The notes under the pieces: model-generated
The model's database searches: none
What the model saw: only the letters and a program-made list of their open reading frames with translations
What the model was told of the DNA's origin: nothing
DNA from: Owenia fusiformis
Taxonomy: Eukaryota > Annelida > Polychaeta > Sabellida > Oweniidae
Length of the DNA stretch: 64,000 nt
Assembly (NCBI GenBank): GCA_903813345.2
Contig: CAIIXF020000004.1
Span: forward strand, 6,095,525-6,159,524
Reading direction: 5' to 3'
Program-made: the position numbers and the translations under genes
Shown: one piece after another, positions 3,361 through 58,178 of the stretch
Layout: the number at the start of each line of letters is the position of its first letter
Numbering within the stretch: the stretch's first letter is position 1

Positions 3361-6018
3361 ATGGTACCGGTTTGGCTTAATGACGTTTTACGACAACAGG
3401 TATATGTAAGTCTGCCCAAATCGTCGTTTAATGTCACTACACAGAAGTAGTGATATATTATTAACGATCATTATTTACATACATATATTAAACCCTGAAA
3501 ATATTTTTTTCTGATACATTGCACATCTCACAGGAACCGAACAGAATTGTCCGAAAATAAAATCCAACACCCTCTCACCCTTGGTATACGCAGCTATTGC
3601 CCCGAACCGATCCGTCTTCTCGCTGCAAGCAGATTGCCCCGAACCGGTCCGTCTTCTCGCTGCAAGCAGGATGAAATTCTTTGTCACAAAATTTGGCATT
3701 TTTTATAAAATCAAACGCGCGTCATTGAAACTCACAAGATGTAAATAGCATGTCATTTACATCATACCTTGATGGGGAAAAATAGATCTTATATGTTAGA
3801 AGTACTAAATAAAAGTTATCGTGAAAATGAGACAGTCGTTCTCAAGAGAAAAGAGCATAAATGCGCATTTAGAGAGTTTTGGTCCGTTTAAAAATCTGTA
3901 AAAAATTGGGGTACTTAAAAGCATCGGGAGGCATCATATATTTCAAATTAGACACGAGGAAGTCAATATTGAGCAAGTTATGGCTATTTCAAATTCAAAT
4001 AAAACCGTTAACCCGTACCGGTCTAGCTTTTGACCCGTACCGGTCAATTTTCGTTAGCTGCGTATACCAAGGATGCCTCTGTGAACCGAAGAAAAAAGAA
4101 TAAACGATTTTTTCTTAGTAAACACATAGTTTAGGGGAGGGGAGCGGGGTGTGTTGGATTTTCTGTTCGGACAATTCGAGGGTCTGTTTCTGTGCTTGAG
4201 TTCAAAATTCTTTGACAAGATACACTACTCTATTGAAGAGAAGCGTTTCGACATAATTTAAGAGTAAATCTTACATCTACTAGATGTATAGTATGTAGTT
4301 AGTTAATTGAATTGTAAAGAGCTGCTCAACGATGTTATTCAAAATGTTTTAAGCACAATCCCTTCAACCATACTATGTAGAATTTTATCACTAACTACAG
4401 TTTTAACACTAGGTGAAGATACAGGTGTTCCTGCTAGTGTGGAGTTGGATATCTTGTGAAGCAGGTTTGATTTTTGCATTTTAGTCATAAATTAATGTGT
4501 ATTCTGTTTGCGCAATACAGAGATGAAAGAGAGCAGTTTTTTTATTGTTCCTTTCAGAGGATATTATATATATAGGAAGTGTACACATAATATACTCGTA
4601 CAGCATATATTACAGGTAAAACTGATTGGAGCACAGCATATATGAATGAACGTCTATGTCCAACAGAAGACGATTACGTTATTCAAGATCAGAAAGTCAT
4701 GTGGTATTCGGCAAACCGAGCAAAGAAAACCCTCCCGCAAGTGTTTAGGATATCTACATCTAAAATACCAGGGGCAGGGCTAGGTGTATTCTCAGAGATG
4801 TTCATCCCAGTGGGTACTTTCTTTGGGCCATATCAAGGCGATACTGTTCAGAGTATCAAGGATGTTCATTTACAAGGCGATTATGCTTTTGCCGTGAGTA
4901 CATTGCATAATGTGAAGTAATGCCTGGGTCACATTTGCTCCGATCCATCGGCCGGGCGCCGTAGTAAAAATTGGAGCAAATGTGACCAAGGCATAACAAC
5001 CCAAGGTTACTTTTACCATTTTCTCTCCGCGAAAAAATGGGCCAAATAACCCAATTCTTATCTGGCACACTTGTTTGAAATTCAATGGAATTAAAGAGGC
5101 GGAATTGATTTAAAAGAAAGAAACCAAGGTTGAATCGGCTGATTAACGTATTCAAAGCGTATTTGTGTTATGCAAATAAAAATTGTAATTGACTCACAAT
5201 ATATTTGTGGTGATAAAGGATATAATGCAATACAATACAATGCAATACAATAAACGAAAATTAAGATGTGTTATGTGTTATTAAGATGTGTGAAAATACC
5301 ATTTTGTTTGGTACATCTAGGTTATGAAACGAGGCAAAATCATTTACATCATTGACGCTTGGAATCCCGACTGCTCGAACTGGTTACGCTATGTTAATTG
5401 TGCACGCGATATGATGGAACAGAATCTAGAAGCGATCCAATGTGATGGACATGTATGTATAATAGTACTAACCAAAAAAATCCAAAAAGGCCTGGGTTAA
5501 GTAATAATGTCCTGTTGAAGAACACTTATTCTCACTGTTGAAATGGTTCTTAAACAGAACATTGGGCTTGCTTTTTAGAGCCCTTCGGGCTTCGTGGAAT
5601 CTCACTTGTGAAAGATGTACAGGTATTCACCTCAATAGAGTGAAATATTTGTTCAATATTACACGTGTTGTATTTCCTCGTCCATTGCCTCCAAATGATA
5701 CCAGTTCCTTGCATAATATGATCACGAATAATGAAATAATGAATATATTCTTATCCAATACGAGTGCAAAACAAAACTTGAAAGTAATAGTAAGTTGTTT
5801 TTATAAAATCTACTTTTTTCATAATTCAGGTAAACTACAGAACTATCCAACCTATATATCCTGGTCAGGAGCTACTGGTTTTCTACGGTTCACTTTACGT
5901 TGAGTCACTGGGTATATCTATCTCCAACTACTGTAAATGGTACAACGGAACAATGCACCACGCCATAGGGTCTGATAGAAACTGTAGAGATCTGTATCAA
6001 CCAAAGTTAAGACATTGA
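3361..6018 (+). CDS. Secreted-type PR/SET-domain protein, copy A (228 aa, five exons)
   Basis: Exons 3361-3405, 4413-4455, 4616-4893, 5321-5452 and 5830-6018 join in frame with AG/GT borders to 228 codons plus TGA. Exons 1-2 give a leader with the hydrophobic run VFLLVWSWISC; an in-frame TAG at 3343 supports the ATG at 3361. Exons 3-5 give a PR domain like that of PRDM9: GAGLGVFSE (cofactor-binding region), YVNCARDMMEQNL (residues 146-158) and ELLVFYG, then a tail with CKWYNGT. No zinc fingers follow and the stop is clean, so this is a stand-alone PR domain. The family normally methylates histones in the nucleus; a leader, five or more cysteines and an N-glycosylation sequon (NGT) argue for the secretory route. 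Activity is unproven. The exon 2 donor (GTGAAG) is weak but conserved in copy C. Confidence 0.8.
4921..4993. repeat. Foldback hairpin in intron 3 of copy A
   Basis: TGCCTGGGTCACATTTGCTC at the left is matched by its complement at the right end with one mismatch, around a GC-rich loop (GGCCGGGCGCC). Copy C lacks it at the same place, so it arrived in block 1 after the duplication or was lost cleanly from block 2. Confidence 0.7.
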
Positions 6019-6502
6019 AAGTAGTGATCTACTTCAATTTGAAACATGTATCGAACCATTTTTTAAATAATAATTCCATTAGACATGACGGATTTGTATT
6101 TTCAGTTTCATTCTTTATCTACACCTACATGTACCTATTTCAATGCTCAATAATTTTTCATGAAATTTTCACAGGATAATCTTCCAAGCATTCCCAACGA
6201 ACAAAGTCTTTTGTTTAACTCATAATTTATTTTCAGTAGGATTACAGGTTTTCAAAAATGATGGCCAACTTCTGTTGTTAAGGGACTTTTTTCTCCTTTT
6301 GGAGGACAATTCCAGTTTTCGATTGTTATGATTCTAATTTTTTAATAGTTTAATAATAGTTTATTTCTTTGTCACAGGTTTACTCAAATATTACAAGTAA
6401 AATACATGTATTTACAACCCAACCATATGAATATACAAAGACAATCAATGAGAAATATAGCATTGGTATGTCAAAGGTACCTTTGAATGTTCTTTGCATG
6501 TA
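6019..6502. other. 3' flank of copy A, nothing further recognised
   Basis: Sequence after the stop codon shared in part with the region after copy C (near 21145-21240). Only an AATAAT-type A-rich stretch near 6066 is visible as a possible polyadenylation region. No other gene seen. Confidence 0.35.
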
Positions 6503-7490
6503 CAGGGCGTTCAATAAGTATTGCTAATTTTGTTATAACTTTCGTTATCTTGCATATTTCTTCATGAAACTTTTACGACATAAGCAACACATATCTGACC
6601 TTATTCTGGACAACCAACTTAGTATTGACAAAATTATTGTTACTAGGGTAACCATTGTCACAGATACGCGGGGCAACCTTAAGCCTTAAGGGTTTACATG
6701 ATGAATTATTGTTACACATCAAACAAACACTTTGATGAATAAAAACTGTTGATATGGTCAAATCTTGATGCTGTCAGTTTGAATTATATGTATTATCTAA
6801 CAGCGTCGAAAAGAGATCTGAGAGGAATATCGCACTAGAATCTCAACCAGCGGATATCTGTAGTGAACACTGCACATCCCTAGCCACACACTTCAGCGTC
6901 CTCAAAGAGCAATATCGACCTATACGGTCCACCAGGATAACGCCCCTGCTCACAGATCCTCTATTCTCCTAAATACATTAACAGAGCTTGGCATGGAATC
7001 ATTGCCCCACGCAGCAAATTTCCCAGATAAGGCCCCACTTGATTTTGTTGCATTCGCATCAGTGAAAAGGGATCCGAGAGGAATATTGCACCAGAATCTC
7101 AATCAGCTGATATCTGCAGTGAACACCTCCCTAGCCACACACTTTAAGGGTAGCTTCAAAAATGTGTACCATGAGTGGGTCGCCAGACTGCAACTGTGAA
7201 TTGACGCTCAGGGTACCTGCCTATTTTGAGCACCTCATGAAGTTAATATGGATCATGAAGTGACTCTGGCATGGATTATTTATAACTGCACTGCATGTCC
7301 CAAGAGTTAAACGGCATTAAATGATACTGCTTTCAACACTCAAATGTCGTCAAAAGTGACGTCAGAAATTTGCCCCGCATATCCATGATACTGGTTACCT
7401 TAGTAAACATAACTTTGTTAATACTTATGTTAATATGTTGTGAGAGTTTCATGAAGAAAAATACTTTGACTATGGCTTCAGTTTATATCA
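6503..7490 (+). mobile_element. Degraded mariner-like transposon
   Basis: The left end starts TA-CAGGGCGTTCAATAAG, and 6560-6680 is repeated in inverted orientation at about 7370-7460. Around 6925-7199 the plus strand reads pieces of a mariner transposase: VHQDNAPAHRS, then ESLPHAANFPDKAPLDF and a C-terminal stretch ending YHEWVARL. These match the DNAPAH and SPDLAPSDF regions of that family. A piece of the coding region (about 6808-6915) is duplicated. Stops and missing N-terminal sequence make it inactive. The right terminus is not clear. Confidence 0.65.
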
Positions 7491-7796
7491 CAGGAAAAAG
7501 ATAGATGGTGCCCAATGTGGTATCGAGAAATCAAGTTCTAAAATGTTGCATTTTCATTTTTCTGAATTTCTAATTCAAAACTCTAATAGTGTAATGCTTT
7601 TGTGTTTAGATTTTTAAGGGGGGGGGGGGTATGATGCACGGGAATGAGTTATATTTTAACTGAAGGAGAATGACAAAGGGTATGATACCTCACATATCAG
7701 TAATCTGATTTTCAGAAATAAAGATCCTATATCTCTAATTATGCTAAACAACAAATAGATTTGATAGATTGACCTCGATGTATGATATTACCATAC

Positions 7797-8224: not shown

Positions 8225-11200
8225 ATGGCGACAATGATTTCGATTTATGAGGTTTTAAAACAACGAATTCATGTAAGTTTGCACTTTTTTAAAATGTTCA
8301 TGTGTCATAAAAAGTGGAAACGTGAAGTGTTGTAATAGGCGTTGTTACATACATATTTATTTGCGGGTAAGCTAACCATACATATTTACAATATTTGTTT
8401 GCCTAAAACCATCATACATTTTACGATCACATATAGAACATTTGTCAAGGAAGAAAATCCACTCCATTCATTCCTTGATACACAGCGAGATTTTATAATG
8501 TTGTCTTGATTGTTATTTTGACTTCCAAGGAGCTGTCCAAGAAACTGAAACCGTATTTTTAGTGAGGTTAAGTAACACGTTTTAAGAGAACCTGTATGCG
8601 AGCGTGTAATATTTTACCCGGGGTATCTTAAAGGGATCCATTTCTTGTACACCTTTTAGCTCTTTTTCATTTTCATCATGTGAAAAACTCGAAGTTTTGT
8701 AGGGGTCTTGACACATGTAATACCCGTTTACGGTTCTACTTTTTCTTTTTTCTTTCACAGGTGTCAGAATGGATTTACTTGTTTAAAAACGTGTAATTTA
8801 ACCTCCCTATTATAGATGAATCTGTACGCAAAATAAACCACTTCTGAATTAAATAAGTTTTCCGATATGCATGATCAAACACTAACTACAGTTATTAAAC
8901 ACGTAGGTGCAGGGACGGCTGCTAATGCTGATATGGTGTTCGATATCTTGTGAGTTTGACAATTCCTTTGTAGTACAGGGTGGTCAAAAAATGGAAACCC
9001 TGTATTTTCCTCATATCTTTGTCATTTTGGGTTATTATTCCCTGAAATTTGACACATATGTACAACATTCAATTTCTTACCAGCTAACCATATTTCATGA
9101 CCATCAGATTGATAGTCACAATGGTACAGCACTTTGAACAAGATGCCCCAGTGTGGCCACCATCGCGCTATTGGCAAATCTGAATGGGTTGTCAATGATC
9201 TGACTACATTTTTCAGCAGGTATGGCCTGAATGACATGGATGATTTGCTTTTTGAGGTCTGCAGTTGTCCTGGGGTTATTCTCGTACAATCTTTTTTGGT
9301 GTATCACCACAGGTTGAAGTTAAGTAGGGACATTTTGGATGATAGGTGCAGGTTTGCCGAAAGTGCAATATTGGCCACTGGAGCATGTTGTTTAAAGTGC
9401 TGTAACATTGTGACTATCAATTTGATCGTCATGAAATATGGTAGGCCGGTAGGAAATTGAATGATGTACATATTTGATTAATATCAGAGCGTAATTTCTT
9501 CAAATGACAAAGATATGAGGAAAATGGCGACAGGGTTTCCATTTTTTTGACCACCCTGTATGATAGAGTATTGTACATGGTACAACAGGAAGGTTAATCT
9601 TTAATATACACCTTATTGGGTTGCGATATACATGAAAGCAAACCAATAAGGTGTATATTAAAGATTAACCCCCCTGTTATCTCAAAATCTGCTTGAAACC
9701 CCACCATCGGATTAACAAGGGAAATTCCTCCTAGATAATATTACAGGGATTAAAGAATTGGTGCAGTTTACATAATTTGAGAAATTATTGGCATACATGA
9801 AACCTATTTAAAACAGCATTTCAATTATTCAAAAGCGTCGAGCACAATAATTCTCAGCCCTCTGAACTAAAAAATCTGGGTAGATAATCCTTGAAAATGA
9901 GAACTTTTTGGGGGATTATACGGAGCAATCTAATAATCAATAAAATGTTTTGCAGTGTATTGTTGTTTTTTAGATGAAAAAAATATAAGCAAAATGCACA
10001 AAAAACTTATTCGATTCATTCTAATAACAACTCGAGGTCCTTTGAATATAATATAGCCATACTTTGAAGAGATCAGAAAGTGTTTGCGAAATCCCACATT
10101 AAGCGGCCATTTTAAATTTTACGGGCCTGAATTAGAAAAACGATACAATATTTGCAATCTTCTCTAAATTGCCTTTCATTTGAGTATTATAAAGTTATAC
10201 TTCAAGAAAGATCTCAAAATTAACAAAAACACCTGTTTTCCCGATCCCCCATTCACGGCCCCAAGGTGTCAGGCTGAAAATCACGGAAGATATGCGAAAT
10301 TGATAGATGTTTTGAATGTACTATCAAAATGAATTTCGCAAAATATTCGCGCCATTTCTAGAGGGATGGTTATCATTTTCTGGGGTAACACTTTTGACCA
10401 ATATACATATTCCCACCAAATATGAAGCAAATTTGTCAACTAATGTAGTATTCGAGTCATCTTTCGGACGGACGGACAGATTGATGGACCGACAGACTGA
10501 CTGACTGATGGGTGAACGGCTTCACTATCCCTACCGATCTTCGCTCGTTGGGATAAAAATCCACGTCCAATTTGAAATTCCGGTTTTAAACTTATTTAGG
10601 AGTTGAGCTTCTCAGGCTCAGGGTTCACCGTTCCTGCAATCAACGTAGAGTATAATTACAGGCATACTTGGTTGGAGTAATGCTTTGTGTAGGAATACTT
10701 TATGTCCAACAGAAGACGATTATGTAATCCGAGATCGGAAAGTCATGTGGTATACGGCAAACCGAGCAAAGAAAACCATTCCGCAAGGGTTTAGGATATC
10801 TACATCTAAAATACCAGGGGCAGGGCTAGGTGTATTCTCAGAGAAAGTCATTCCAGTAGGTACTTTCTTTGGGCCATATCAAGGCGATACTGTTCCGAGC
10901 ATCGAGGATGTTCGTTTGTCTGGCGATTATACTTTTATCGTAAGTACCAAGGGACATAAGATGAGTTTCTCATATAAAATACAAGTAATCAAGAAGGTGG
11001 ATTAAACGAAAGTCTAGGTGAACTACATGAAAAAAACAATTTCGTTAATTTTTAACAGGTATACCGGAATGGTAGTAAGTACTTTGTTGACGCATGGAAT
11101 CCCGACTCCTCAAACTGGTTACGCTATGTTAATTGTGCACGCGATTTGATGGAACAGAACCTAGAATCTATCCCATATGGCGGAAATGTACGTTTGTATA

Positions 11201-13691
11201 CCATTACGAGGTACAAAGTTACAAAAATGTAATACTCGATTTAGCCATACCATTAATCGCATTTCCCGTTAAATCGCATTCTCCTCACATGTAAGTGTCA
11301 ACTCGATGTCAACTTGCGTCTACTGGGAATAGGACTTGAGTAAAATACATTTCCAGTATATATTATATGGACAGGGGACACGTTATAGATTCGATCTCAG
11401 AACTAATCAATTTAAATCTACTATTGGACAAAGGAGCATTAAACACACAGAACAGACAACATGGAATGATTTACTTGAAAATTTAAGAACCCTTTCAAAG
11501 AAAAATTCAAATCAAATTTGAAAGAATATTACTTGGACAGGTATTTAATTGTACTTTAGAACATTTAGCTATCGTGTTTATATATATTTCTTCCTTTCTT
11601 TTCTTTTTCTTTATTCTTTACTCTCATCCTTTTAAAAACAGTTTTATGAATTGTCATCTGCGAGCAAAGTCTATTTATAAACTACCCTCTGCTTAGTATA
11701 GAGTATATTACAGTTTAGCACCCCCGTTCCAAAGATTGGTGCCTGTGACAACCGGGTAATAAATCATTTCAAATTTACCACGCTGACCCTTTCTCATCCA
11801 ATCAGCGAATTGGAAGGGAACACGTGCTAAATACGTGCTCATTAACTACAGGGTGTCCGGAAAGTAAAGATGCAGACACTCTTATTTTAAGTGATTTGTT
11901 TTTTTTGTAATGAAATTGCTACGGATTGTAGAGGAACTATATAACAATACATCTACCAACTTTTAGAACATAAAGTCTAAACGTGTGAAAGTTACTGTTG
12001 TCATGGTTACGGTGGCCAGGGGTATGCGGAGCAGTTCCATGATATTGCTAAATTGTCATTAAATGCTAGAATTTAACCATTTGAAATGGTGTTAATTATT
12101 GTATTTCCTATCAATATTTTGTTTTGTTCAATACTGCATTCAAGCTGCAATAATATTCTCTTTAGTATAATGATATCATTGATACAGATTATAACTATGT
12201 AATGTCACTAAATAGTGTAATCAAAGAAAAATCATATAAGTGCTTAGAAAAAGTCCCTGGATTAATAGAAAAGTCAATAGCGCATACTCAACAATGCACC
12301 AATTCACAAAACAAAATTTACAATTGAATGTCTTGACATTAAACTTTTTTTGTACAATGGCCCATATTACCGTGATATTGCCCCGTTGAACTTCTACATT
12401 AATGAATATTTTAAAGCAATATTTATTAGAAGGTCAACATGAAAATGAGACTCTGCTTGAAGCCAATTTTATCAGTAATCTGCGAGATGGACAGCAGCGG
12501 TTTTTTCAGGTCTTTGAATCTCTGGTCAAGATGCACCACAAATGTTTAGACAATCTTAGAAATACATAATACTGGATAACAGTAGTAATGTCAAATGACC
12601 AAATGATGTTACAGTACTACTTCTTTTGCTGTTATAGTACATAATTTGATGTATAATAGCAACAGATAATGGAGTGTCAAGATGATATGAGCAGGAGAAA
12701 AGAATCATAAAGCATAATTGTGACACTGCTCCACATACCTGGGACTACCGTTACCATAACAACCATAACTTTTTCATTTTGAAATAATTTGTCATATACA
12801 ACTGCAGGATAAATTGTTATCCTGTCATTCTATAATCTGTTGCAATTTTCTCTAAACAAGTAAATCTATTGAAATTAGAGCATTTGCATCTTTACTTTCC
12901 GGACACCCTGTATGTGAGAATGTCAGAGGAAATGACCATAGAAAGTCGTCTGTATTTCGACGACGAACTCTGATTGGCTCGGTGAGATCAGTGATTAATT
13001 ATAAACTGAAAAAGTGAAGACGAAGCTCTCTTTTAAGAAGTGAAGTCGAACGAATGCTAGGGTATACAATATTCAACATACAATTATGACTATCAAAAAC
13101 GTGAAAGCCAGTGTTGTAATTTTAAAAGCATGATGACAATCAAAAGACAATTTTTCTATTGAAAAATAAGGGAAATATATATTTAAAGAATCTGCTGACG
13201 TGATATTGATTGGTAGAGACGGGATTCTAATATCAAAGTAACATTTATATGTCATTTGAAGAATGTAATCCTATTTTCTTTACTTTATTGCTATTTTTAC
13301 TGTTATTGAAAATGTATGCTTGGCACTAAAAGGGCACCAGTACAAATAAAATCCTATGGGGACGCATTTTACTCAAGTCCTATACGCCAGTACACGCAAG
13401 TTGACGTTAGTACGTGGGGTTTACGATGTTAAGGCAAAAATGCGATGGCTTATTTGAATGAAACTGATTGATTAGCTTAAAAATCATTTTTTTATAATTC
13501 AGATATACTATAGAAGCATTCAAGCTATATATCCTGGCCAAGAGTTACTGGTTTTCTATGGACACGACTATCTCGAGAAACTAGACATACCTATTCACAA
13601 CTACTGTAAATGGTTTAACGGGACAGTGCATCAAGCCATATGGTCAGATTTCATCTGTGGAAATCTCCATCAACCGAAATTAAAGAATTAA
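8225..13691 (+). CDS. Secreted-type PR/SET-domain protein, copy B (228 aa, five exons)
   Basis: Exons 8225-8272, 8907-8949, 10662-10939, 11059-11187 and 13503-13691 join in frame to 228 codons plus TAA. The leader is MATMISIYEVLKQRIH from exon 1 and VQGRLLMLIWCSIS from exon 2, then C-ILGWSNA from the start of exon 3. The hydrophobic core is about 15 residues, with a plausible cleavage after SNA. The PR domain has GAGLGVFSE, YVNCARDLMEQNL and ELLVFYG, then CKWFNGT and a final cysteine (DFIC). Introns are inflated by two mariner-type insertions (8976-9558 and 11849-12910) and a hairpin. Closest relative in the window is copy D. A histone-type methyltransferase fold is clear; enzymatic activity and secretion are inferred. 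Confidence 0.8.
8976..9558 (-). mobile_element. Mariner/Tc1-type element in intron 2 of copy B
   Basis: Terminal inverted repeats CAGGGTGGTCAAAAAATGG and its complement are flanked by TA on both sides, the target of Tc1/mariner elements. The minus strand carries the C-terminal part of a transposase (9116-9310), with phrases such as NPRTTADLKKQI and IPAEKCSQIIDN, typical of the end of these enzymes. At 583 bp it is an internally deleted copy. Copy D at the equivalent position has a single TA (near 23124), consistent with an unoccupied site. Confidence 0.75.
9592..9670. repeat. Perfect 28-bp-arm inverted repeat
   Basis: 9592-9619 and 9643-9670 are exact reverse complements, separated by 23 bases. 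Such a stem would fold strongly in the copy B pre-mRNA. It lies just downstream of the mariner insertion and may be a foldback element. Confidence 0.8.
10290..10556 (+). repeat. Dispersed repeat with GACGGACGGAC tract, copy 1
   Basis: The end reads GGGTGAACGGCTTCACTATC, then CGAACTTCGTTCGTTGGGAT-like sequence. Copies lie at about 24140-24410 (copy D) and, inverted, at 59222-59830. Upstream sequence (about 9990-10280) also belongs to the same family. It lies in the intron before the first PR exon in both B and D, so it predates the duplication. Confidence 0.7.
11849..12910 (+). mobile_element. Mariner/Tc1-type transposon in intron 4 of copy B
   Basis: Ends CAGGGTGTCCGGAAAGTAAA and its complement are flanked by TA. 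At about 12360-12570 the plus strand reads a degraded transposase C-terminus (DIAPLNFYINEYFK resembles the SPDLSPLDFFLWGYLK region). The frame is broken, so the element is inactive. Total 1062 bp, nearly the same size as the elements at 566-1628 and 14003-15063. Confidence 0.8.
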
Positions 13692-15912: not shown

Positions 15913-16360
15913 TTAAAACTTCAACACTAATAGGAAAGATAGTCCAGCTATCAGAGGTAAAAAATGTGCATGCGTGGCACCACTTCCGTTTGTTTTACTC
16001 AAACCCTTTTCAGTTTCTAAATTTTCATGTTCTTTGTCCTGAGATTCTAAAGGTTCTGCCCCCATGGGCCTTTCGACTAGACCATCTTCATCAATTACTT
16101 TTTGTTTTGTATCTGACATTGCGGTATGATGTGTAAGCCCAGCAAACTGAATAGAGCCAGATGTTTTCGGACAACCGTACCACCACTCGGCCGTTGAGCG
16201 CGGGTACGGGGCTGACGAACTCGAGTCGACTCTAAATTGACTGTCATTGTAACGGTAATAATTGCCATCTTTGAAGAAATACGTTCGCCCGTTTACCCTG
16301 TTCTTCCGTTCCCACTCCATACAAAAGCAGCGTCTATACTAGATGGCATGCCTCTGGAGC
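15913..16360 (-). pseudogene. Chimeric 3' fragment of a matrix metalloproteinase gene
   Basis: Reads the fourth hemopexin repeat (NGRTYFFKDGNYYRY), the closing cysteine (WWYGCPK) and the hydrophobic tail FLPLIAGLSFLLVLKF, nearly identical to the end of the full gene at 28954. At about 16298 the match jumps from the last exon to the preceding exon of the parent (parental positions about 29351 to 29776), removing an intron and most of a hemopexin blade. Both sides of the jump encode NGRTYF, so unequal recombination between hemopexin repeats is the likely cause. There is no catalytic domain or promoter. The frame is open for 135 codons, but I judge it a remnant. Confidence 0.8.
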
Positions 16361-18183: not shown

Positions 18184-21144
18184 ATGGTACCAGTTTGGCT
18201 TAATGACGTTTTACGACAACGGGTTTATGTAAGTCTGCCCAAATCGTTTAATGTCACCAAGATCATTATTTACATACATATTAAACCCTGGAAATTTTTT
18301 TCTCGAGACATTTCACAACTCACAGGAACTGGAACAGAATTGTCCGAAAATGAAATCCAACACCCTCTCTGAACCAAAGAAAAAACGATTAAACGATTTT
18401 ATCTTAGTAAACACAGTTTAGGGGAGGGGAGCGGGGGGTGTTGGATTTTCTGTTCGGATAATTCGAGTGTCTGTTTCTGTGCTTGAGTTCAAAAATCTTT
18501 GACAAGATACGCCACATTGAAGAGAAGAGTTTCGACATAATTTAAAAGCGTAAAACTATGTAGTTGGTTAATTGAATTGTAAGGAGCTGCTCAACGATGT
18601 TATTCAAAATGTTTACATACTATGTAGAATTCATCACTAACTACAGTTTAACACTAGGTGAAGATTCAGATGTCCCTGCTAGTGTGGAGTTGGATATCTT
18701 GTGAAGCAGGTTTGACAATTGCATTTTAGTCATAAATTAATGTGTATTCTGTTTGCGCAATACAGAGATGAAAGAGAGCAGTTTTACACTCCCTGCTCAA
18801 GGAGTTTGACAAGCGCAAGTCCCAACTGGACATGGCCAATTAAATTCTGTTTATGTTTAAATCTTATTATTTTTTCTAAAATACATTAAGAAGCTTGAAT
18901 ACTACCATAGTATTCGCAATGATCATCTTTCAACAAAATACTTGGTCCAAAGAGAACCTTATAGAAATGTTTTTACCAAATTGTTCCGCTGCAGGCAATG
19001 GAGTATCGAGTTTGAATAATGGCTGCCAATTCTCAATGGCTCCTGGCCTGCATATTTCAGAGGATAGAAAAGCTTGAGCCTTATATAGGAAGTGTACACA
19101 TAATATACTCGTATAGCATATATTACAGGTAAAACTGATTGGAGCACAGCATATATGAATGAACGTCTATGTCCAACAGAAGACGATTACGTTATTCAAG
19201 ATCAGAAAGTCATGTGGTATACGGCCAACCGAGCAAAGAAAACCCTCTCGCAAGGGCTTAGGATATCTACATCTAAAATACCAGGGGCAGGGCTAGGTGT
19301 ATTCGCAGAGATGGACATCCAAGTGGGTACTTTCTTTGGGCCATATCAAGGCGATACTGTTCAGAGTATCAAGGATGTTCATTTACAATGCGATAATGCT
19401 TTTGCCGTGAGTACTACCGTGCAATTAGACTAAATGTGTAGTAACAACGCAGGGTAACTTTTACCATTTTGTCCCAGCAAAAATGGGCCAAATAACCCAA
19501 TTCTTATCTAGCACACTTGTTTGAAATTCAATGAGATTAAACATTCAATGATATATTAACTAGTTCAATATAATCACTTTTTCGTTTTTGAGAATCAACC
19601 GTTTCGGCAAAAGAGGCGGAATTGATTAAAAAGAAAGAAGCCAAGGTTGAATCGGTTGATTAACGTATTCAAAGCGTAATGTGTTAATGCAAAATAAAAA
19701 TTGTAATTGCATCACAATATATTTGTGGTGATAAAGGATATTATGCAATACAATACAATACGATACAATACAATGAACGAAAATTAAAATGTGTTAAGAT
19801 GTATGGAAATACCATTTTGTTTATTTCATCTAGGTTATGAAACGAAGCAAACTCATATACATCATTGACGCTTGGAATCCCGATTGCTCGAACTGGTTAC
19901 GCTATGTTAATTGTGCATGCGATATGATGGAACATAATCTAGAAGCGATCCAATGTGATGGACATGTATGTATAATAGTACTAATCAACAATTTTAAAAA
20001 GGTCTTGAGTTAAGTTTAATGTCCTGTTGAAGAACCCATGTTCTTACTATTGAAAATGGATTCTAGCAATCTTTTCTCACTGTATAATAGTACTAACCAA
20101 AAATTTAAAAAAGGTCTGAGTTAAGTTTAATGTCCTGTTGGAGAACCCATGTTCTTACTATTGAAAATGGATTCTAGCAATCTTATCCAAAATGAATGTA
20201 CTTGTTGAGATTCCATCAAGTTGAGTTCCTCTGAGAATATGAGGATTTCAGGAAGGATACATTGACTTAACATGGTGACATAGATGATGGGGTGCCGATG
20301 ATGGTATCCCGATGCTAAGTCATTAGACTAAGTATAGTCAAAGTGTGTTTCTCCCCATGATGAATCAATGCACCCATGCTGAACTCCTCATTTTCTCAAA
20401 AGAATTCAACTCGATCGAGTCTCAACCAGTAGATTAATGTTGGATAGTATTGATAGAATCCATTTCAATAGTAAGAATGGGGGTTCTTAAACATAAGATT
20501 TTAGAACTTCTTCAAAATGAATGTACTTGTTGAGATTCCATCAAGTTGAGTTCCTCTGAGAATATGAGGATTTCAGGAAGGGTGCATTGACTTAACATGG
20601 TGACATAGATGGTGGGGTGCCGATGATGGTATCCCGATGCTAAGTCATTAGTCAATGCGTGTTTCTCCCCATGATGAATCAATGTACCCATGCTGAACTC
20701 CTCATTAAACTCCTCTTAAACATAACATTTTGGGCTTGCTTAACTTTTTAGAAGTTCTTGTTGGTACTATAAAGGGATGGATCGTGCACATGTAACATAC
20801 ATTTCTACATTTTTTTCTCGTCCATTGCCTCCAAATGATACCAGTTCCCTGCATAAGAAGATCACGAATAATGGATATATTTTTATCCAATACGCGTGCA
20901 ATACAAAACTTGAAAGTAATAGTAAGTTTTTTTTATAAAAATTACTTTTTTTATAATTCAGGTAAACTACAGAACTATCCAACCTATATATCCTGGCAAG
21001 GAGCTACTGGTTTTCTACGGTTCACTTTACGTTGAGTCACTGGGTATATCTATCTACAACTACTGTAAATGGTACAACGGAACAATACATCACGCAATAG
21101 GGTCAGATAGACAATGTAGAGATCTATATCAACCAATACATTGA
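18184..21144 (+). CDS. PR/SET-domain protein, copy C (226 aa, motif degenerate)
   Basis: Exons 18184-18228, 18658-18700, 19129-19406, 19834-19965 and 20962-21144 join in frame to 226 codons plus TGA. An upstream in-frame ATG at 18154 could add ten residues; I chose 18184 because it matches copy A. The leader is closed by MSLLVWSWISC. The signature NCARDMMEQN of the family reads NCACDMMEHN here, and DYAF reads DNAF. These changes fall in the most conserved strip of the PR fold and could weaken or abolish cofactor or substrate binding. Two codons are missing at the C-terminus compared with copy A. The frame is otherwise intact, so it may be a non-catalytic paralogue or a gene early in decay. 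Confidence 0.75.
19985..20710. repeat. Nested direct and inverted repeats in intron 4 of copy C
   Basis: A phrase ending CCCATGTTCTTACTATTG occurs twice (about 20010-20070 and 20125-20185) and again inverted near 20450-20490. A segment of about 200 bp beginning AAAATGAATGTACTTGTTGA occurs at about 20188 and again at about 20515. Copy A lacks this array in the same intron. Confidence 0.65.
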
Positions 21145-25300: not shown

Positions 25301-26766
25301 AGTATTATACAGGGTGGTCCAAAATAGTGAACCCCTGCAACGGGCCATCTTTCCCTTATTACAAGCAGGAATTCGTTCATATTTTCACATGTATATGGAC
25401 AAGGAATATACGTTATAGATTCGATCTCAGAACTTATCAATATAAATTTTCTATTGGAAAAGGAGCATTAATACACAGGACGGACAACATAGAATGATTA
25501 ACTTGAAATTTATTAAGACAACCATTCAAAGAAAAATTCAAATCAGATTTGAAAGAATATTACTTGGACAGGTATTTAATTGTACTTTAGAACATTTAGC
25601 TATATCGTGTTTATATATATTTCTTCCTTTCTTTTCTTTTTCTTTATTCCTAACTTTCTAGATTTGAAAGAGTATTACTTGGACAGGTATTTAATTATAC
25701 AGATGCGAGTAGGTATTTACCACTTTCGCCACCAGGTGGCTAATTCGGGGGAAATAACATGGCAGGGTATTACAAAATTCCCTTAAACTTGAATATTCAT
25801 CAGTTTTAGTGCTTCTCTTTTCATATTATCCTTATGTATCTAATAGTTATGCAAATTAAAATATGTCCAGTGAAAGAAAATATTATCTCCCCAACACAAA
25901 AAAAGATAATTCACTTTTTGTGATTTTACAACATTGGGTCTATGGGGAATATCCCCAACCTAGAAGTCACATTTTCAAAGAATTTTCAAAGTTTATTAAC
26001 TCTTTTCAGAACCACATTACTAGATGTAATTTTACATGTACATTCAAAATATGACATCGTTTTGACTGAATTTTGATTATCTTATGAAGGAAATCATGAT
26101 TATTTCGACTCGCATCTGGTGTATTGTACTTTAGAACATTTAGTTACATCGTGCTTATATATATTTCTTCCTTACTTTTCCGTTTCTTTTCTCCTTACTT
26201 TCTATCTTTTAAAAACAGTTTGATATATTGTCATCTGCGAGAAAAGTCTAGTTATAAAGTACCCTCTTCTATTGAAGAGTGAGGGGAATATATTCAAAGA
26301 ATCTGCTGACATGAGAAATCGATTGGTAGAGACGGGATTGTTATATCAAAGTAACATTTTATATGTCTTTCGAATAATGTAATCCTATTTTCTTTATTTT
26401 ATCGCTATTTTCACTGTTATTGAAAATTGTATGTTGAATGTACGTTGGGCCCTAAAAGGGCATCAGTACAAATAAAAATCCTTTGGGGACGCATTTTACT
26501 CAAGTCCTATACGCCAATACACACAAGTTGACGTTAGTACGTGGGGTTTACGATGTTAAGGCACAAATATATTTCAGGTATACTATAGAAGCATTCAAGA
26601 TATATATCCTGGCCAAGAGTTAATGGTTTTCTATGGACACGACTATATCGAGAAACTAGGCATATCTATCCACAATTACTGTAAATGGTTTAACGGAACA
26701 GTACATCAAGCCATATTGTCAGATTTCATCTGTGGAAATCTCCATCAACAGAATTTAAAGAATTAA
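22335..26766 (+). CDS. Secreted-type PR/SET-domain protein, copy D (228 aa, five exons)
   Basis: Exons 22335-22382, 23038-23080, 24512-24789, 25017-25145 and 26578-26766 join in frame to 228 codons plus TAA. Exon 1 reads MATMVSMYEVLKERVH and exon 2 VQGWLLMLIWCLIS, completing a hydrophobic leader like that of copy B. The PR domain has GAGLGVFAE, YINSARDFMEQNL and ELMVFYG, then CKWFNGT. The cysteine of NCARD is serine here, while an extra cysteine appears nearby (NLECIPY), which may change disulfide pairing if the protein is secreted. Splice donors are good matches (GTAAGT at exons 1, 2 and 3). Confidence 0.8.
23507..23955. mobile_element. piggyBac-type MITE with TTAA target duplication
   Basis: Terminal repeats GGATGCAGTACCTGGTC and the complement of GACCTGGTACTGCATCC are each flanked by TTAA (23503-23506 and 23956-23959). 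Copy B at 10091-10110 shows the unoccupied site, CCCACATTAAGCGGCC. The 449-bp element carries no transposase frame. It inserted into copy D intron 2 after the duplication. Confidence 0.85.
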
Positions 26767-33934: not shown

Positions 33935-35303
33935 GTTATTGCATTTAAACAATTGCTTTTAGTAATGGGTTAACATCTTCCTTTTTGTGATATTTACTCC
34001 ATCCCCAATTTACGTTTATACTTCAATTCTTAACTGAATGAACACTAACTATTTTCAACTATTCTATTTCTAAATCATATACTAGTATATATATTTAGGA
34101 TAACTTATTTATTGAACTCTGATACGATTACAATCGCACATAGGACGAAAAGTATAATGTTCATATTTAGATACGTGTAACATTTAGACGTGGTGTACAA
34201 GCTGTTGTTAATTTCAGTGAATCGGATAAGTGCAGGATTAGTATGGGGGTTATTACGTGGATTACAGGAAGATGACGAATTAAAACGTTGGATTTATGCT
34301 TTGATGATACAACAATTGACCAACTACTTGTAACAATGAAGTGGCAATCACTGAATGTCGACAAAACAAAGGTGAGGATATCCGGATTGATTTATGACAG
34401 CGCAACTTTTGATGACCGTTGAAACAATGGGATATGGTTAGAAACTTCCACATGGGGTAAATGGACATTGCGTCAATAGATGCGCTGGATGTTAATGTTG
34501 TTGGCGGTTTCGATCCCTGCCTATAGACAAAGGCTAAAGTGCAAATAAGGATGTACATGTAGACTTTGATTACATCCATTGGGCCAATCAGATTTTTTGT
34601 TCATTAATTGTGTAGCCACTTTTTGAAATAAATATTGCACTGGAACAGAACATTTCAGTACAAAGTGGTCATATTTTCCAAGACAGTACAGTTGCTAAAC
34701 ACACGTAGCTTTGAAATCTCGCTGAGATCTCGTTTTATTGAGACATTGGGAAACCTGCATTTTGATCAACATTTTCTGCAGATTCTGATTCTGATCTAAT
34801 ATTCAAATTGTGATCCTTCAAAGAGTAAATGAACTTTGAAAGGTCTTCTCCATTGTGTTAGCAGAGATTAAGCCTTACCCTTTTCAGAAAATTGACTTCC
34901 TGAAAATTGTATAAACAGGTAATTAACTGCAAATCAAGTTTTAATAAAAGATTACGCTCAGCTAGAATTCAAATATTAGTATGCTATCAAATAATTACTT
35001 TGCTTATAATATATATAAAATATTGTAAATTGTTTTAAATAATCCAATTTTAAATCTGTCATTTCGCTCTGTAATTTATTTATATTTCGAATACATGGAT
35101 GATTAGATGTCAGAACTAGAGTAGACATACCAATTAAGCCTCTCGACAAAATATTAAAAAAGTAATTAAATCAACCGTATATTGCAGTGTTATATTAAAT
35201 ACCTAGCGAAGCATTTGTATGGGAGTCAATTGAGCTGAAGATCGGCTATATATTTCTGTACGTATTTAGCGCCAAACTTTTGACATTTTGACACGACAGA
35301 CCC

Positions 35304-35475
35304 CAGGCCCGTAACCAGGACTTTTTGAAAAATTTTAGGGGGATTACTTGTGCAATTTTCGTCCAAAAATGGCCCAAATCACTTAAAAAGTACTCAGAAT
35401 GGTGAACAACTGCATGATTTTGAAGGATTTTTGGCCAGGGGGGGTCGAACTCCCCCCCCCCCGGCTACGGGCCTG
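35304..35475. mobile_element. hAT-like MITE ending CAGGCCCGTA
   Basis: Begins CAGGCCCGTAACCAGG and ends CCGGCTACGGGCCTG. A related copy lies at about 53270-53430 in the guanylate cyclase gene, sharing 'atggtgaaaaactgcatg' and the same right end. Both contain a long G/C homopolymer next to the right end. Confidence 0.6.
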
Positions 35476-35689
35476 GACCTGCAGGCTGGTGGGAACACAA
35501 TGGCTATTATGATATATCTTTAGTATTAAGTAATACATCCGAGGTGGATTAAACAATCCATTCATAAAAAGTAATGCCGGACGAGCTAGAAAATGAAAAT
35601 ATCATTCAAAAATCTTATCTGAAATGACACACTGTACGTATATATAAAGTACAAATGTAAGCTCATTTTAAGAAATAATACATCAACTG

Positions 35690-36480
35690 AATCTTTTGCA
35701 TATATTCCAGGTGCACTTTTGTTACATTTGTTACTATTGGTCTGTGTACAATTCGCATTCCTCTGTGAAGGAGAATGCAAGCTTATATTAGGAAATAATT
35801 GAATCTCTTTCATATATTGGTTTGTGTACAATTTCCATTCCTCTGTGTAGGAGAATGCAAGCTTATATTAAGAAATAATTCAATCTCTTGCATATGTTGA
35901 TCTGTGTACAATTCTCATTCATCTGTGTAGGAGAATGCAAGCTTATATCAAACAATAATTGACTCTCTTGCATATATTGGTTTGTGTACAATTCCCATCC
36001 ATCTGTGTAGGAGAATGCAAGCTTATATCAAACAATAATTGACTCTCTTGCATATATTGGTTTGTGTACAATTTTCATTCCTCTGTGTAGGAGGATGCAA
36101 GCTTATATTAAGAAATAATTGAATCTCTTGCATATATTCTAGATGCTGCTAACATTGGTCTGTGTACAATTCCCATTTCTCTGCGTAGAAAAATGCAGGT
36201 TTATATCAAGAAATAACCAAATCTCTTGCATATATATTGGTTTGTGTAGTATTCCCATTACTCTGCGTAAGAGAATGCAAGTTTATATTAAGAAGTAACT
36301 AAATCTCTTGCATATTAATTTCAGGTGCAATTGCTAATATTGCATGGTTTGTGTGCAATTCTCATTCCTCTGGGTAAAATAATGCAAGTTTATATTAATT
36401 TATTTGAAACATACTGTAGGAACAAATAACTGAATCTCTTATAAATTATTAATTGTATACATTCCTGGTGAAATTGCTAC
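35690..36480 (+). repeat. Minisatellite derived from a signal-peptide exon and its splice acceptor
   Basis: About nine units of roughly 80-100 bp. Better-preserved units read 'tgcatatattccag', then an ATG- or GTG-led stretch encoding LLLLVCVQFSFLC-like residues, then GGAGAATGCAAGC and 'ttatattaagaaataa'. The unit at 36143 encodes MLLTLVCVQFPFLCVEK after an AG. Most units carry frame breaks. The same unit recurs at 39240-39474, where the last copy is intact. Confidence 0.65.
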
Positions 36481-36489
36481 TATTGAAAT

Positions 36490-37529: not shown

Positions 37530-39474
37530 AACAATATAGACGTCCGAATTCCGGTGAATCGAATAAGTACAGGATTAGTATGGAGTTTATTACGTGGATT
37601 ACAGGAAGATGACGAATTAAAACTATGGATTTATGCTTTGATGATACAACAATTGACCAACTATTTGTAACGATGAAGTGGCAATCACTGAATGTCGACA
37701 AAACAAAGGTGAGGATATCCGGATTGATTTATGACAGCGCATCTTTTATGACAGTTAATGTTAAGGTAAAGTTCACGGAAAATTGAAAAATGTGCAGGGC
37801 AGAAATTTCAAACTTTTCTTTTATTGAATATTTATGAATGTTTATGCTGGGTCTAATGTCGTTTGTGGTTCAATCCTTGCAAATAGACGCACGCTAAAGT
37901 GCAAATAAGGATAGACAAATGCATCTCTATTTAGATATTTATGCATTAATTGTACTTTACTTGATTTCTCAAGATATTATTGCACGAGAACAGAATATTT
38001 AAGTGCAAATTGGTCATATCTAGGATTCTTCATCCCAGGTCATACTTTCTAAAACAGTTCGATTCAATCTAAAGGAAAAATTGGCACGTTACCTTTTGAA
38101 CTGTTTATTACAGATTTATAGTTGCTGCTTGACTGTACTGTATAGACTGTACAATGCAGTTTTTATTGTTAACTACAGGTGGAAATAGAAACAAAATTGT
38201 TGATAATTTATCCGTTCAAAAAGTGTCCATGTAATGCATGTAGTTTTAATGGGACATCTGCGAAATCTGATTATTAATCTGAAATAGTAAAGATACAAAG
38301 TCACTATATCCAAAATGTGTTAACAATGGCCCTTAACATGGGCATGTATCTAGAAATTGGTGGCAACCAGGGTGTGACGGTGTCACTACATTATGTGTAC
38401 ATAAATAACTCTAGTTAATCAGTTGATGGTATAAAGTCACAGCTAGATTTAATCAATGTACTTTTAATTAAAATAGTTGCTCTGACTGGTCATGGCGAAC
38501 TGACTCTGACACGGCCCGTGTTCTCGAAGTATGTTTCATATTTATCTACTTATGCGACATATAACATTCGAGACACAATTTGAATTCAACATCATCTAAT
38601 ATTATTGTATTTATGAAATCATTTGCATTTGGTTGCAACTGTTGCACAATCAACAAAGTTTGACTAGTTCTATTTATGTCATTATATAAATTGTACGTTA
38701 TATTTTATATTTTGCAAGTTTAGAAATTATTTCGAAAGGTGGTTGGATTCGGAATGGGTTGGTTTCAATTAGTTTTATTTATCTCCTTAATTAATTACTA
38801 TATTGTATATAATTTGTTCAAGTAAGGGAATAATTTCAAACAATGATAGTAATTAATGTATGTTTTTTCATAAATTACAGTTATCTAGTATAATCGCATT
38901 AATAAATCATGAAATCAAAGTAAGTTATCCTATCAAAATGGAAAAACATAACATAAAATGATTTACATAATATGGAAATAACGTAAGTTGTTAAATAATC
39001 AAATTTCAAATCTGTCATTAAGCCTTGCCAGTGTATCGAGTGGAACCAATAATGATATGTCAGTACGAGGATAGATATGTCAGCTCAGCTTCACGACGGA
39101 ATGTTTATTGAAAAGTTAATCCAACCTTATACATATTTTCTGAATATTTTGTATAAAAGTAATGTTTCCGATGTAAGTCTAGAACTCCATTAATGCAGAG
39201 AACGCCAGATGTTCATGAGCTACTGATTGGATCATATCAACTGAATATCTTGCATATACAATTCCAGGTGCATTTGTTACTATCGGTCTGTGTACAATTC
39301 TCATTCATCTGCGTAGGAGAATGCAAGCTTATATTAAGAAATAACTGAATCTTTTGCATATATTCCAGATGCGACTGCTACTATTGGTCTGTGTACACTT
39401 TTCGTTTCTCTGCGAAGGAGAAACTGGAGATGTCGGAGAAGCCGCCAGACAAAGCATAATAGACAAGTATAGAG
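37530..39474 (+). repeat. Duplicated unit 2
   Basis: Second copy of the unit at 34170-36480: the conserved stretch at 37550-37710 (VNRISTGLVWSLLRG, then GLQEDDELK), a diverged middle, and two signal-peptide-exon units at 39240-39474. About 1 kb of middle sequence (34990-35160 against 38940-39110) is still alignable by eye. Confidence 0.55.
39369..39474 (+). CDS. Orphan first coding exon with signal peptide
   Basis: Directly after an acceptor-like TATTCCAG, an ATG opens 35 codons and one extra base, ending at a GTGAAT donor. It begins MRLLLLVCVHFSFLCEG, a good secretory signal with a cysteine near the cleavage region, and continues ETGDVGEAARQSIIDKYR. The exon is the intact version of the units that form the arrays at 35690-36480 and 39240. 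Following exons were not found before copy E of the PR/SET family at 42031, which has its own start. It may belong to a gene whose other exons are too short to see, or be a relic. Confidence 0.4.
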
Positions 39475-39800: not shown

Positions 39801-40015
39801 TCCAAAATACATTCCTCTAAAATGTTACATTTGGATAATGCTTTCATCAATTAGCCAAGGTTAAAAAACAACCAGGAAACCAAAAATAGGTTAATACGTT
39901 TCAATACGATCTTTTCCCGGGGACAATACGATTTTTCCATGTACTACGCTCCAGTACGATTTTTTCCCCGGGGACAATACGATTTTTTCATGTAATACGA
40001 TTCAATACGATTTTT

Positions 40016-42030: not shown

Positions 42031-43716
42031 ATGTTGACTAAGTTACTTGTCTTGACCGATATGCTGTTTCTAATTGTTCATGCTATATTGCATTCTAATA
42101 TTTATGTTCAAGGTAAACTCTCAAAATTCGCCAATCACGAAGGACTGTACAGTGATGAAATTGAAGCTCGCCTTGCCACACTTGACAAGGTTTCACTTCT
42201 TAAAAATGATGAATATGTAAATGATTTTAAAAGTAAACTCCAAAGTATGATTTCCGAGTACGATCAAGAGGATGTAGAATCCGAACCGGAACCGGAAGAA
42301 GAATCAGAACCGGAACCGGAAGAAGAATCGGAAGAAGAAGAAGACGACGACGAAGACGTTATATATTTAGAGGATGAAGAATGGGATATGGAATACTGGG
42401 ATGAACATCTATGCGCAACAGATCATGATGATATCATTCCTGATAACGTCATTGACTGGAATGTTACAGACCGTGCAAGAAAAACTATGCCACCGGGGTT
42501 TAGAATATCAAATTCTACAATACCCGGGGCGAATCTCGGTGTTTTCGCCGAGGCATTTATACCTTCAGGGACCTATATGGGACCATATGAGGGAGAAGTT
42601 ATTTATGATGACGAAGATCTCTATCTTAATGCAGACTATGCTTTCAAGGTAAATTGTTATTTTGAGATAAGGATCTGATTTTACCTTATGATTTGATTAG
42701 ACTCTGGGCGATCCAACAGCACTTAAAGCTGGAGAGGGTAGAGCATTTATCTGTTATGTCTTCAATTTGGAGGAGTAATTGTTAAATTCATACACTATCA
42801 AGTACATACATCGTCGCCTTCAATTGGGTTTATTAATATTTCGATTCATACAGCGTTATGATCGAAGAATAAAAATATAACTGAAGCCCAATACCCTGTT
42901 GGTCGTCCGATTCTGTGTACTTTGTTATTTGCTTGACTGATATTTAACTTAAGGTACCTTACCTTTTTATTCTTCTTTGCTAGATTTACAAAAACAATCA
43001 GCTCCTATTCTTCCGAGATGCCTGGCATCCAGATACCTCTAGCTGGGTACGCTACGTCAACTGTGCCCGCGATATGGTGGAACAAAACCTAGAACCAATA
43101 CAATGCGAAGACCATGTGAGTCTACACAATTAGTGACTGATGTTTTGATAATTAGGCCTAACGATTTGTACCCAAAGTTCTTCATTGATATAATTTGGCT
43201 ATTTACAAATATTTCCTCGTTTTTGTAAATATATGTACAGTATGTAAACAAAAGCGCCAAAAGGGAAATGACAATAACGTGTATGAAACACAATAGGGTA
43301 TGTAAAATTATATGGACCCCCTGTCCTTCTTGTTGGAATTAAAAGGGCTACGTTCATTAACTTCTGGGGTGGTTAATTCAATGGATATTGTAGGAACTCT
43401 TGGCACTTGGTCTATCATGATAGTTATTTGCTATACTTTTTGATTTTTAGGCCAGAATTCATCTTATTATCCTATTCCAATCTGTATAAATCGATCCCTA
43501 TATGCACAGACCTTACTGAATTCACTGCACCTGTAACTTCATTCTTCTTTTTAGATATACTTCCGGGCAATCAAGGATATTAAACCAAATACAGAACTAT
43601 TTATATTCTACGGTTGGGGTTATGCACCCAAACTTGGCCTAGTCGACTACGAATATTGCAAATGGTTCAATGGGACATTTTATGACAGTATTGGCTCAGA
43701 ATGGGTCTGCTCCTAG
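42031..43716 (+). CDS. Secreted acidic PR/SET-domain protein, copy E (303 aa, three exons)
   Basis: Exons 42031-42648, 42984-43115 and 43555-43716 join in frame. The N-terminus LLVLTDMLFLIVHAIL is a strong signal peptide. Residues about 29-77 are a charged helical segment, and 78-126 are mostly Glu and Asp with two EPEPEEE repeats. The PR domain follows: LCATD, NLGVFAE, YVNCARDMVEQNL (the full family signature) and ELFIFYG, then CKWFNGT and a stop after WVCS. Three N-glycosylation sequons (NVT, NST, NGT) fit secretion. Intron positions inside the PR domain match copies A-D, but the leader is not split, so the N-terminal gene structure differs. An AATAAA follows the stop by 40 bases. No zinc fingers. 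Confidence 0.85.
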
Positions 43717-43755
43717 ATATTCTGAACATACTGTTCAATATACTTCTATATAACT

Positions 43756-43761
43756 AATAAA
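43756..43761 (+). promoter_or_regulatory. Polyadenylation signal of copy E
   Basis: AATAAA, 40 bases after the TAG of exon 3, followed by a GT-rich stretch (CCTGTGGTGCATGTGCATG). It supports 43555-43716 as a genuine terminal exon. Confidence 0.6.
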
Positions 43762-44257
43762 CCTGTGGTGCATGTGCATGCTTCTAACTTAGCAAAGTGA
43801 TACTTACATATGCATGCGTTTAACTAAACCATTTTGCCTAAATGCACGACTTTTTGATTATCCGTGTAAAGATTCCAACTAGAAAGATCTGACACACCTG
43901 AAATATGCATGCCTGTAGCTGGGGATATCCGATGCTTGCGATGGATTCATACAACCCACGAATATTAAAACTTAAACTGGTGATGGGCCTTTCAGGCGGA
44001 GTCATGCATCTTGAAATCAATGCATACATCACTAGGCGACCCAAAAGCAGGTTACGGTTATTTAACAATCTCTTTCAGTAAACTGTGAATCTACTTTTGG
44101 TGCGCCTGTATAATTAGGGATTTTTTCAAAATAAAATTGCAGTAATATAAGGTGCCATGATTGAAAATGGAATGTGACGATTATTGACAATGAACTGTTT
44201 TTTGGTAGTTCCAGGCATAACCCACGTCTTACATAGCTTCTGCTTACATTATTTTAG

Positions 44258-44428
44258 ATATACTATAGGGCTATCCAACCTATTAAACCAGGCCAAGAAC
44301 TGTTTGTATTCTATGGAGAAGGGTACGTCGAAAAGCTTGGCATTGCAATGCGTAATTATTGCAAATGGTACAATGGAACTCTACACGATGGGATTGGATC
44401 AGATTATACTTGTGAGGACATTGACTAG
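44258..44428 (+). CDS. Second terminal PR exon of copy E, alternative or relic
   Basis: After a good acceptor (CATTATTTTAG) the frame reads IYYRAIQPIKPGQELFVFYG, then EGYVEKLGIAMRNYCKWYNG and ends at CEDID-stop, 56 codons. It starts in phase 0, as does exon 3 at 43555, so it could be spliced to 43115 instead and give a different C-terminus. It is more like copies A-D than exon 3 is (IYYR, PGQEL, KLGI). No matching upstream exons lie between 43716 and 44258. It is therefore either a mutually exclusive last exon or the survivor of a lost gene. Confidence 0.6.
   Translation: MYYRAIQPIKPGQELFVFYGEGYVEKLGIAMRNYCKWYNGTLHDGIGSDYTCEDID

Positions 44429-45542: not shown

Positions 45543-58178
<12,636 letters not shown>

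Follow-up and report, generated by a model that had tools for sequence, protein, structure and literature searches.

Known PR/SET proteins act as histone methyltransferases in the nucleus or as zinc-finger cofactors, and secretory kinases are an earlier case of a fold that has moved to a new compartment. PRDM9 has an N-terminal KRAB domain, its residues Y357, Y276 and Y341 enclose the target amino group (PMC12122940), and its N320 binds S-adenosylmethionine (SAM, or AdoMet; PMC9861158). We analyzed a stretch of 64,000 nucleotides (nts) from the tube-dwelling marine annelid Owenia fusiformis (contig CAIIXF020000004.1, positions 6,095,525 to 6,159,524 of the forward strand; hereafter the window), in which five genes, A to E, combine a PR domain of the PRDM9 type with a hydrophobic N-terminal leader and carry no zinc fingers. 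Our reading, to which we assign a rough probability of 0.55, is that these genes encode secretory-pathway PR-domain proteins that are most likely lysine methyltransferases. Judging from sequence features, the family very probably enters the secretory pathway and, given such entry, its members are probably active methyltransferases.

Gene models and leader exons of A to E

Genes A to D could be assembled in frame from five open exons apiece, with a GT donor and an AG acceptor at every junction; coding begins in the short exon 1, the hydrophobic core is encoded by exon 2, and the PR domain and the tail by exons 3 to 5 (Table 1). Gene E is likewise open with GT/AG at all junctions, which agrees with the five in-frame genes proposed by a previous sequence-only reading of this DNA. 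As calculated from exon lengths, the leader exon closes in phase 1 in each of the five genes.

The best protein matches of the window genes were two annotated O. fusiformis proteins, P0001 and P0028. P0028 corresponds to spliced gene E including its leader exons, with identity across 342 residues. The join between exons 2 and 3 had been predicted ahead of this comparison; because exon 1 was located with the help of P0028, the identity is a partial test. We first read the leader of gene E from the in-frame ATG at 42031, 5' of exon 3, but abandoned this in favor of the spliced leader, as P0028 begins exon 3 at 42113 and uses 37625-37708 and 39369-39474; with intron retention, a protein starting at this ATG would have a hydrophobic N-terminus too. 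P0001 (230 residues) equals A over its first 93 residues from Met and B over its last 155, and holds A exons 1 and 2 and part of A exon 3, its 3' part being part of B exon 3 and B exons 4-5. Since the overlap of A and B within it falls in a stretch identical between both genes, P0001 probably arose as a chimera of the two at the transcript or assembly level; it still connects A exons 1, 2 and 3. In addition, P0065, the annotated protein of a C5 paralog outside the window, includes the sole leader exon that an upstream scan had predicted beforehand, so that leader exons are contained in three annotated Owenia proteins. This annotation merged RNA-seq and Augustus models via PASA, and 31,678 of its 31,903 transcripts are backed by RNA-seq (PMC9977687). 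Skipping of exons 1-2, named by the sequence-only reading as a sign against secretion, is not seen for A and E as annotated, whereas the annotation gives no hydrophobic leader to P0064, a paralog located outside the window.

The gene structures exceed chance, given the contrast in gaps between exons and introns of the near copies A/C and B/D. These two pairs have 54 gap openings per 3144 BLAST-aligned intron bases versus one, in frame, per 1377 MAFFT-aligned exon bases, where approximately 24 would be expected from the intron parts. For exons 1-2 alone, no gap was seen versus 3.2 expected (P = 0.04).

Signal-peptide scores, obtained with an approximate eukaryotic matrix, were 7.7, 7.4, 5.0, 8.8 and 7.6 for A, B, C, D and E, respectively. 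Among 423 window open reading frames (ORFs) with an ATG start and at least 35 codons, 5.2% scored ≥5 and 0.9% scored ≥7; of 24 control PR proteins from homology searches, some of them partial entries, one exceeded 3.5 (P0004, 4.6). The signal-peptide check that had been proposed on the five spliced proteins thus gave scores of 5.0-8.8 with this approximate matrix, and the hydrophobic leader claimed for each gene is present in all five, those of A (1.99) and C (1.46) being weak on the Kyte-Doolittle scale. The latter scale was dropped as a leader test, since 26.8% of 533 window ORFs reach 2.0. When neutral leader decay was simulated, 4.7-11.2% of sequences were still as open and hydrophobic as the leader of B, which makes this a weak argument for selection on the leader.

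PR fold, active site and C-terminal tail

The Pfam scan took in A, B and E (the latter in its ATG-42031 form) and placed all three in the PR/SET domain (PF21549, PF00856) with profile scores above the gathering cut-off: PRDM2_PR was matched at E = 2.6e-35 (121.3 bits) by A, 8.3e-35 (119.6) by B and 5e-36 (123.6) by E, the cut-off being 27. No zinc-finger or other non-PR/SET Pfam match was found in A, B and E, as the sequence-only reading had it, and the chains end within ~35 residues of the profile match. KRAB was not detected either, Pfam showing PR/SET alone in A, B and P0028. Of the PRDM9 zinc knuckle, the mature part aligns one cysteine only (the C of LC-T), leaving CxxC and His unaligned. 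In the AlphaFold model of P0028, the PR domain mostly has a predicted local distance difference test (pLDDT) value >90, with a mean of 72.3 overall. A Foldseek search with this predicted model, from which the PR fold is read, returned the PR domains of PRDM9 and PRDM1 as top hits, and the nearest solved structure was PRDM9 4c1q (template modeling score 0.80 by target length and 0.41 by query length). Among the PR motifs listed previously, FYG occurs in all five genes; NCARDxxEQN is exact only in A, B and E (NCACDMMEHN in C and NSARDFMEQN in D), and GLGVF reads NLGVF in E.

Y276, N320, Y341 and Y357 of PRDM9 are all kept in A to E. We extended this comparison to the whole Owenia family of 12 genes described below, comprising 13 last exons (gene E with both of its ends); exon 3 of two genes, C1 and C2, was excluded as partial. 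All 10 genes read at the position have Y276, all 12 have N320, and each of the 13 last exons encodes Y357 and Y361. These retained active-site residues favor an enzyme over a dead scaffold.

A secreted but catalytically dead protein, in which SAM chemistry has been lost and the extracellular PR fold serves to bind other molecules as a scaffold (with possible roles in the tube, mucus or immunity), appears rather unlikely, yet a number of observations fit it and count against catalysis. All 10 genes read have F in place of W293, the Y341 position is Y in seven, F in five and L in one of the 13 last exons (F or L in 6/13), E360 is variable, and D carries C321S. The ratio of nonsynonymous to synonymous substitution rates (dN/dS) in the PR part is high in the recent duplicates, 0.63 for A/C and 0.86 for B/D (0.37 for A/B), which indicates fast evolution, and SAM is not known to be abundant outside cells. 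Since 10 Owenia copies agree fully at 32 of 131 gap-free columns, the invariance of the active site is suggestive rather than proof, and may be structural rather than catalytic. On the other hand, Y276, N320, Y357 and Y361 are intact in every copy read, whereas PRDM15 retains just one of the three tyrosines (PMC9861158). Moreover, lumenal SAM is plausible in invertebrates because Caenorhabditis elegans methylates glycans, and does so less in a strain that is deficient for a candidate transporter of SAM (PMC6422873).

In the C-terminal tail, CK[WG][YF] is followed by N-X-S/T (X = G, A or E) and then by another cysteine in 13/13 last exons. The N-terminal cysteine (of LC-T; one paralog, C4b, reads ECPEE) is present in 10/10 genes read, and CK[WG] and the final cysteine in all 13 last exons; in A to E themselves, the shared cysteines (LC-T, CKW and final C) and the NGT sequon reported previously recur without exception. 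A cysteine also takes the place of PRDM9 Y335 in 10 of the 12 Owenia genes (except B and D) and in two related proteins, P0031 and P0016; the two Lineus proteins have M and E at this position, and Cys is absent here from all 10 PRDM9-like sequences that fall outside this group.

If our reading of A to E as secretory-pathway methyltransferases is correct, a signal peptide would direct translocation and then be cleaved (some paralogs may have a signal anchor instead), the tail would be N-glycosylated at the sequon just after the PR domain, and disulfides would form thereafter. Lysines of secreted or cell-surface proteins might then be methylated in the Golgi or endoplasmic reticulum lumen using lumenal SAM or, less likely, outside the cell. 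The supply of lumenal SAM is the weak step of this scheme, and tube or mucus proteins would be a guess at the substrate.

Gene E could end in either of two exons, a and b, which carry Phe and Tyr, respectively, at the Y341 position besides other differences (Table 1). A Tyr/Phe switch alters product specificity (PMC9861158). Gene E may employ exon a as well as b, and the choice of last exon could act as a product-specificity switch. The 5' module of gene E is also repeated: a second copy of exon 1 shows 93.8% identity across 211 bases, and copies of leader exon 2 form an array with a spacing of ~80 bases, in which one copy has an open frame beginning with an ATG at an acceptor (36143, MLLTLVCVQFPFLCVEKC). 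These copies may be alternative leaders or remnants.

Members elsewhere in Owenia and competing explanations

Profile and protein searches of the 498-Mb (megabase) Owenia genome revealed seven further family genes, resulting in a total of 12. A midpoint-rooted tree of 35 rows included 10 Owenia copies (C1 and C2 were excluded as partial), which a branch with support of 95/94 separated from all other rows (none of 500 label shuffles gave a value as low); the expanded branch suggested by the sequence-only reading is larger than its five genes, and the copies placed in the tree form one group. P0031, P0016 and, from the annelid Paralvinella palmiformis, P0029 adjoin this group (87/84, not starred), and the leader-bearing Owenia genes are apart from zinc-finger genes, including L004 of Owenia itself. 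Since neither the addition of Lineus to the larger group of Owenia, P0031, P0016 and P0029 (approximately unbiased test, p-AU 0.41) nor the joining of the Owenia group with L004 (p-AU 0.213) was rejected, a single secreted branch across Spiralia is possible. L004 (C4:31.288 Mb) and L003 (C2:5.135 Mb) are PRDM9-like PR genes, and zinc fingers lie downstream in L004; therefore, a nuclear-type gene coexists in Owenia with the leader-bearing family. P0029 has repeated PR-like segments within one chain.

Upstream of the paralogs, we scanned for an ATG, a hydrophobic run and a phase-1 donor. Leader candidates were obtained for the three C5 genes, C3, C4b and C1, several at some genes: C3, C5_1 and C1 had three each, of which one was chosen by position or make-up, and the one chosen for C1 (MWGVPVPGWGLCLLLIGVTSG) is without a confirmed junction. 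C5_2 scored 5.9. Outside this annotation, a leader together with a PR domain also occurs in two proteins of other sources, P0006 (7.4) of the nemertean Lineus and P0031 (9.5). Tandem copies of a short stretch, LELNVEPMQCREHV, were observed 3' of exon 4 of the C3 paralog (L039, ~9011-9622).

Entry into the secretory pathway, as first proposed, is supported by the leader exons of the three annotated proteins, the signal-peptide scores, the sequon in 13/13 last exons, and P0006 and P0031. Several results weigh on the other side. The scan gave no leader candidate for C2, and nothing convincing for C4b, whose three overlapping candidates come from a repeat. In P0064, the annotated C3 paralog, the hydrophobic run is spliced out as a 97-nt intron, and the score falls to -5.7; C3 may exist in either form, with the run spliced out or kept, but as annotated it counts against secretion of that paralog. 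Scores are weak for C5_1 (2.1), the run-keeping C3 form (2.9) and P0065 (3.8). All scores depend on the approximate matrix, and those of A to E are not independent because A and C, like B and D, are nearly identical, and A is in turn a relative of B. The leader dN/dS, based on few sites, is 1.2 for A/B (0.26 for A/C and 0.54 for B/D), and the leader letters accordingly drift between A and B. The probable chimerism of P0001 belongs here as well.

In the light of these results, one may suppose that the proteins are intracellular, possibly nuclear, and that the hydrophobic stretches are chance or lie in untranslated or skipped exons. Besides P0064, three relatives are listed without a leader (Lineus P0003, -2.3; P0016, -9.6; Paralvinella P0029, -4.3), hydrophobicity alone is weak evidence given the share of window ORFs reaching the Kyte-Doolittle value above, and a 2025 survey of histone modifiers counted among them kmt8 (prdmx/mecom), which it found significantly expanded in O. 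fusiformis, with up to six unresolved genes (PMC12153100). However, the leader exons lie inside annotated P0028, P0001 and P0065, the sequon, CK and final cysteine are present in every last exon, and leader and PR domain also occur together in P0006 and P0031, which makes an intracellular location improbable.

A narrower explanation, that C and D are decaying, functionless duplicates, is slightly less probable still. Both are recent copies, with a synonymous divergence (dS) in the PR part of 0.07 for A/C and 0.08 for B/D compared with 0.51 for A/B, and their PR-part dN/dS is the high one given above; positions that the other copies keep have also changed, in C (NCACD..EHN and Y291N) and in D (C321S). 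Nevertheless, their exons are open and in frame, with a single in-frame gap where ~24 would be expected. That the hydrophobic stretch stays on the protein as a signal anchor, making the family type II membrane proteins with a lumenal PR domain, is very improbable, as the cleavage scores of A to E are 5.0-8.8, despite the low values of C5_1 and the run-keeping C3 form and the basic n-region and long hydrophobic run that retention of the 97-nt stretch would give C3. We retain the secretory-pathway reading of A to E. The original observation is correct, and the case for it has become stronger: the family has more members, leader and PR domain occur together in two outside proteins, and three annotated models bear the leader versus one without.

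Table 1. Coordinates of the PR-domain genes, gene E modules, neighboring features and genomic paralogs (window positions unless a chromosome-style label is given)
Feature	Position	Strand	Description
Gene A	3361..6018	+	exons 3361-3405, 4413-4464 (leader), 4616-4893, 5321-5452, 5830-6018 (PR domain and C-terminal sequon)
Gene B	8225..13691	+	exons 8225-8272, 8907-8949 (leader), 10662-10939, 11059-11187, 13503-13691
Gene C	18184..21144	+	recent copy of A; exons 18184-18228, 18658-18709, 19129-19406, 19834-19965, 20962-21144
Gene D	22335..26766	+	recent copy of B; exons 22335-22382, 23038-23080, 24512-24789, 25017-25145, 26578-26766
Extra copies of gene E 5' module	34288..36440	+	exon-1 copy (second ATG 34336) and array of leader-exon-2 copies; not in P0028; repetition also noted at 39268
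Gene E exon 1	37625..37708	+	leader n-region, second in-frame ATG 37673; placed using P0028
Gene E exon 2	39369..39474	+	signal-peptide exon MRLLLLVCVHFSFLCEG..., closes in phase 1; present in P0028
Gene E exon 3	42113..42648	+	acidic stretch, then first PR-domain half
Gene E exon 4	42984..43115	+	carries NCARDMVEQN
Gene E possible last exon a	43555..43716	+	IYFRAI..., Phe at Y341 position, CKWFNGT; open, acceptor AG and stop; absent from P0028
Gene E last exon b	44258..44428	+	IYYRAI..., Tyr at Y341 position, CKWYNGT; used in P0028
Transposase-remnant look	6867-7199		by eye; no Pfam match at 0.01
Metalloproteinase-like piece	15913-16338	-	C-terminal piece resembling matrix metalloproteinase by eye; between the A-B and C-D pairs
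Matrix metalloproteinase gene	28954-31148	-	Peptidase_M10 and hemopexin matches, hydrophobic C-terminus
Guanylate cyclase gene pieces	48420-50435	-	Pfam match 49686-50081; repeated stretch at ~48.5-49.4 kb in the ORF list
Paralog	C3:3.12 Mb		one gene
Paralogs	C5:25.58-25.61 Mb		three genes
Paralog	C4:4.22 Mb		one gene
Paralog	C2:31.56 Mb		one gene
Paralog	C1:38.69 Mb		one gene

Comparison with known PR/SET systems

Literature searches, for which most subscription journals were outside reach, found nothing on secreted PR/SET proteins among the papers listed. A wider scheme can be put forward tentatively: animals may possess secretory-pathway lysine methyltransferases that descend from a PR domain of the PRDM9 type and occur in annelids and nemerteans (in the latter as PLAT fusions), with about a dozen genes in Owenia, in which the Tyr and Phe forms of gene E, made through alternative last exons, would tune the methyl number. 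If the secreted branch is real, the PR/SET fold has been relocated to a new compartment in the manner of the secretory kinases, and lysine methylation of secreted animal proteins becomes directly testable. Should the reported kmt8 (prdmx/mecom) genes of Owenia (PMC12153100) be the genes described here, that expansion would need to be reread.

Among the relatives, Owenia L004 shares the PR domain and differs by the C2H2 zinc fingers after it. Moth PRDM7-like proteins (such as P0007 and P0012) resemble the Owenia family in having a PR domain and no zinc fingers in the Pfam list, but they are leaderless (-1.0 and -5.8, respectively), and P0007 retains knuckle-like cysteines. P0006 of the nemertean Lineus longissimus has a signal-peptide-like leader, a PR domain and the active-site tyrosines in common with the family; unlike it, P0006 ends in a C-terminal PLAT/LH2 domain with no CKW-NGT tail, and its Lineus relative P0003 is listed as leaderless. 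P0031 (216 amino acids, from a contig of 883 bases) shares the leader, the PR domain, the Cys at 335 and one Cys near the C-terminus, and differs in having no sequon at the Owenia position. With the histone lysine methyltransferases PRDM9/PRDM7, finally, the Owenia family has in common the PR fold, Y276, N320, Y357 and Y361, and an NCARD-like motif, whereas it lacks zinc fingers and a full zinc knuckle and instead carries an N-terminal leader together with a sequon and new cysteines near the C-terminus.

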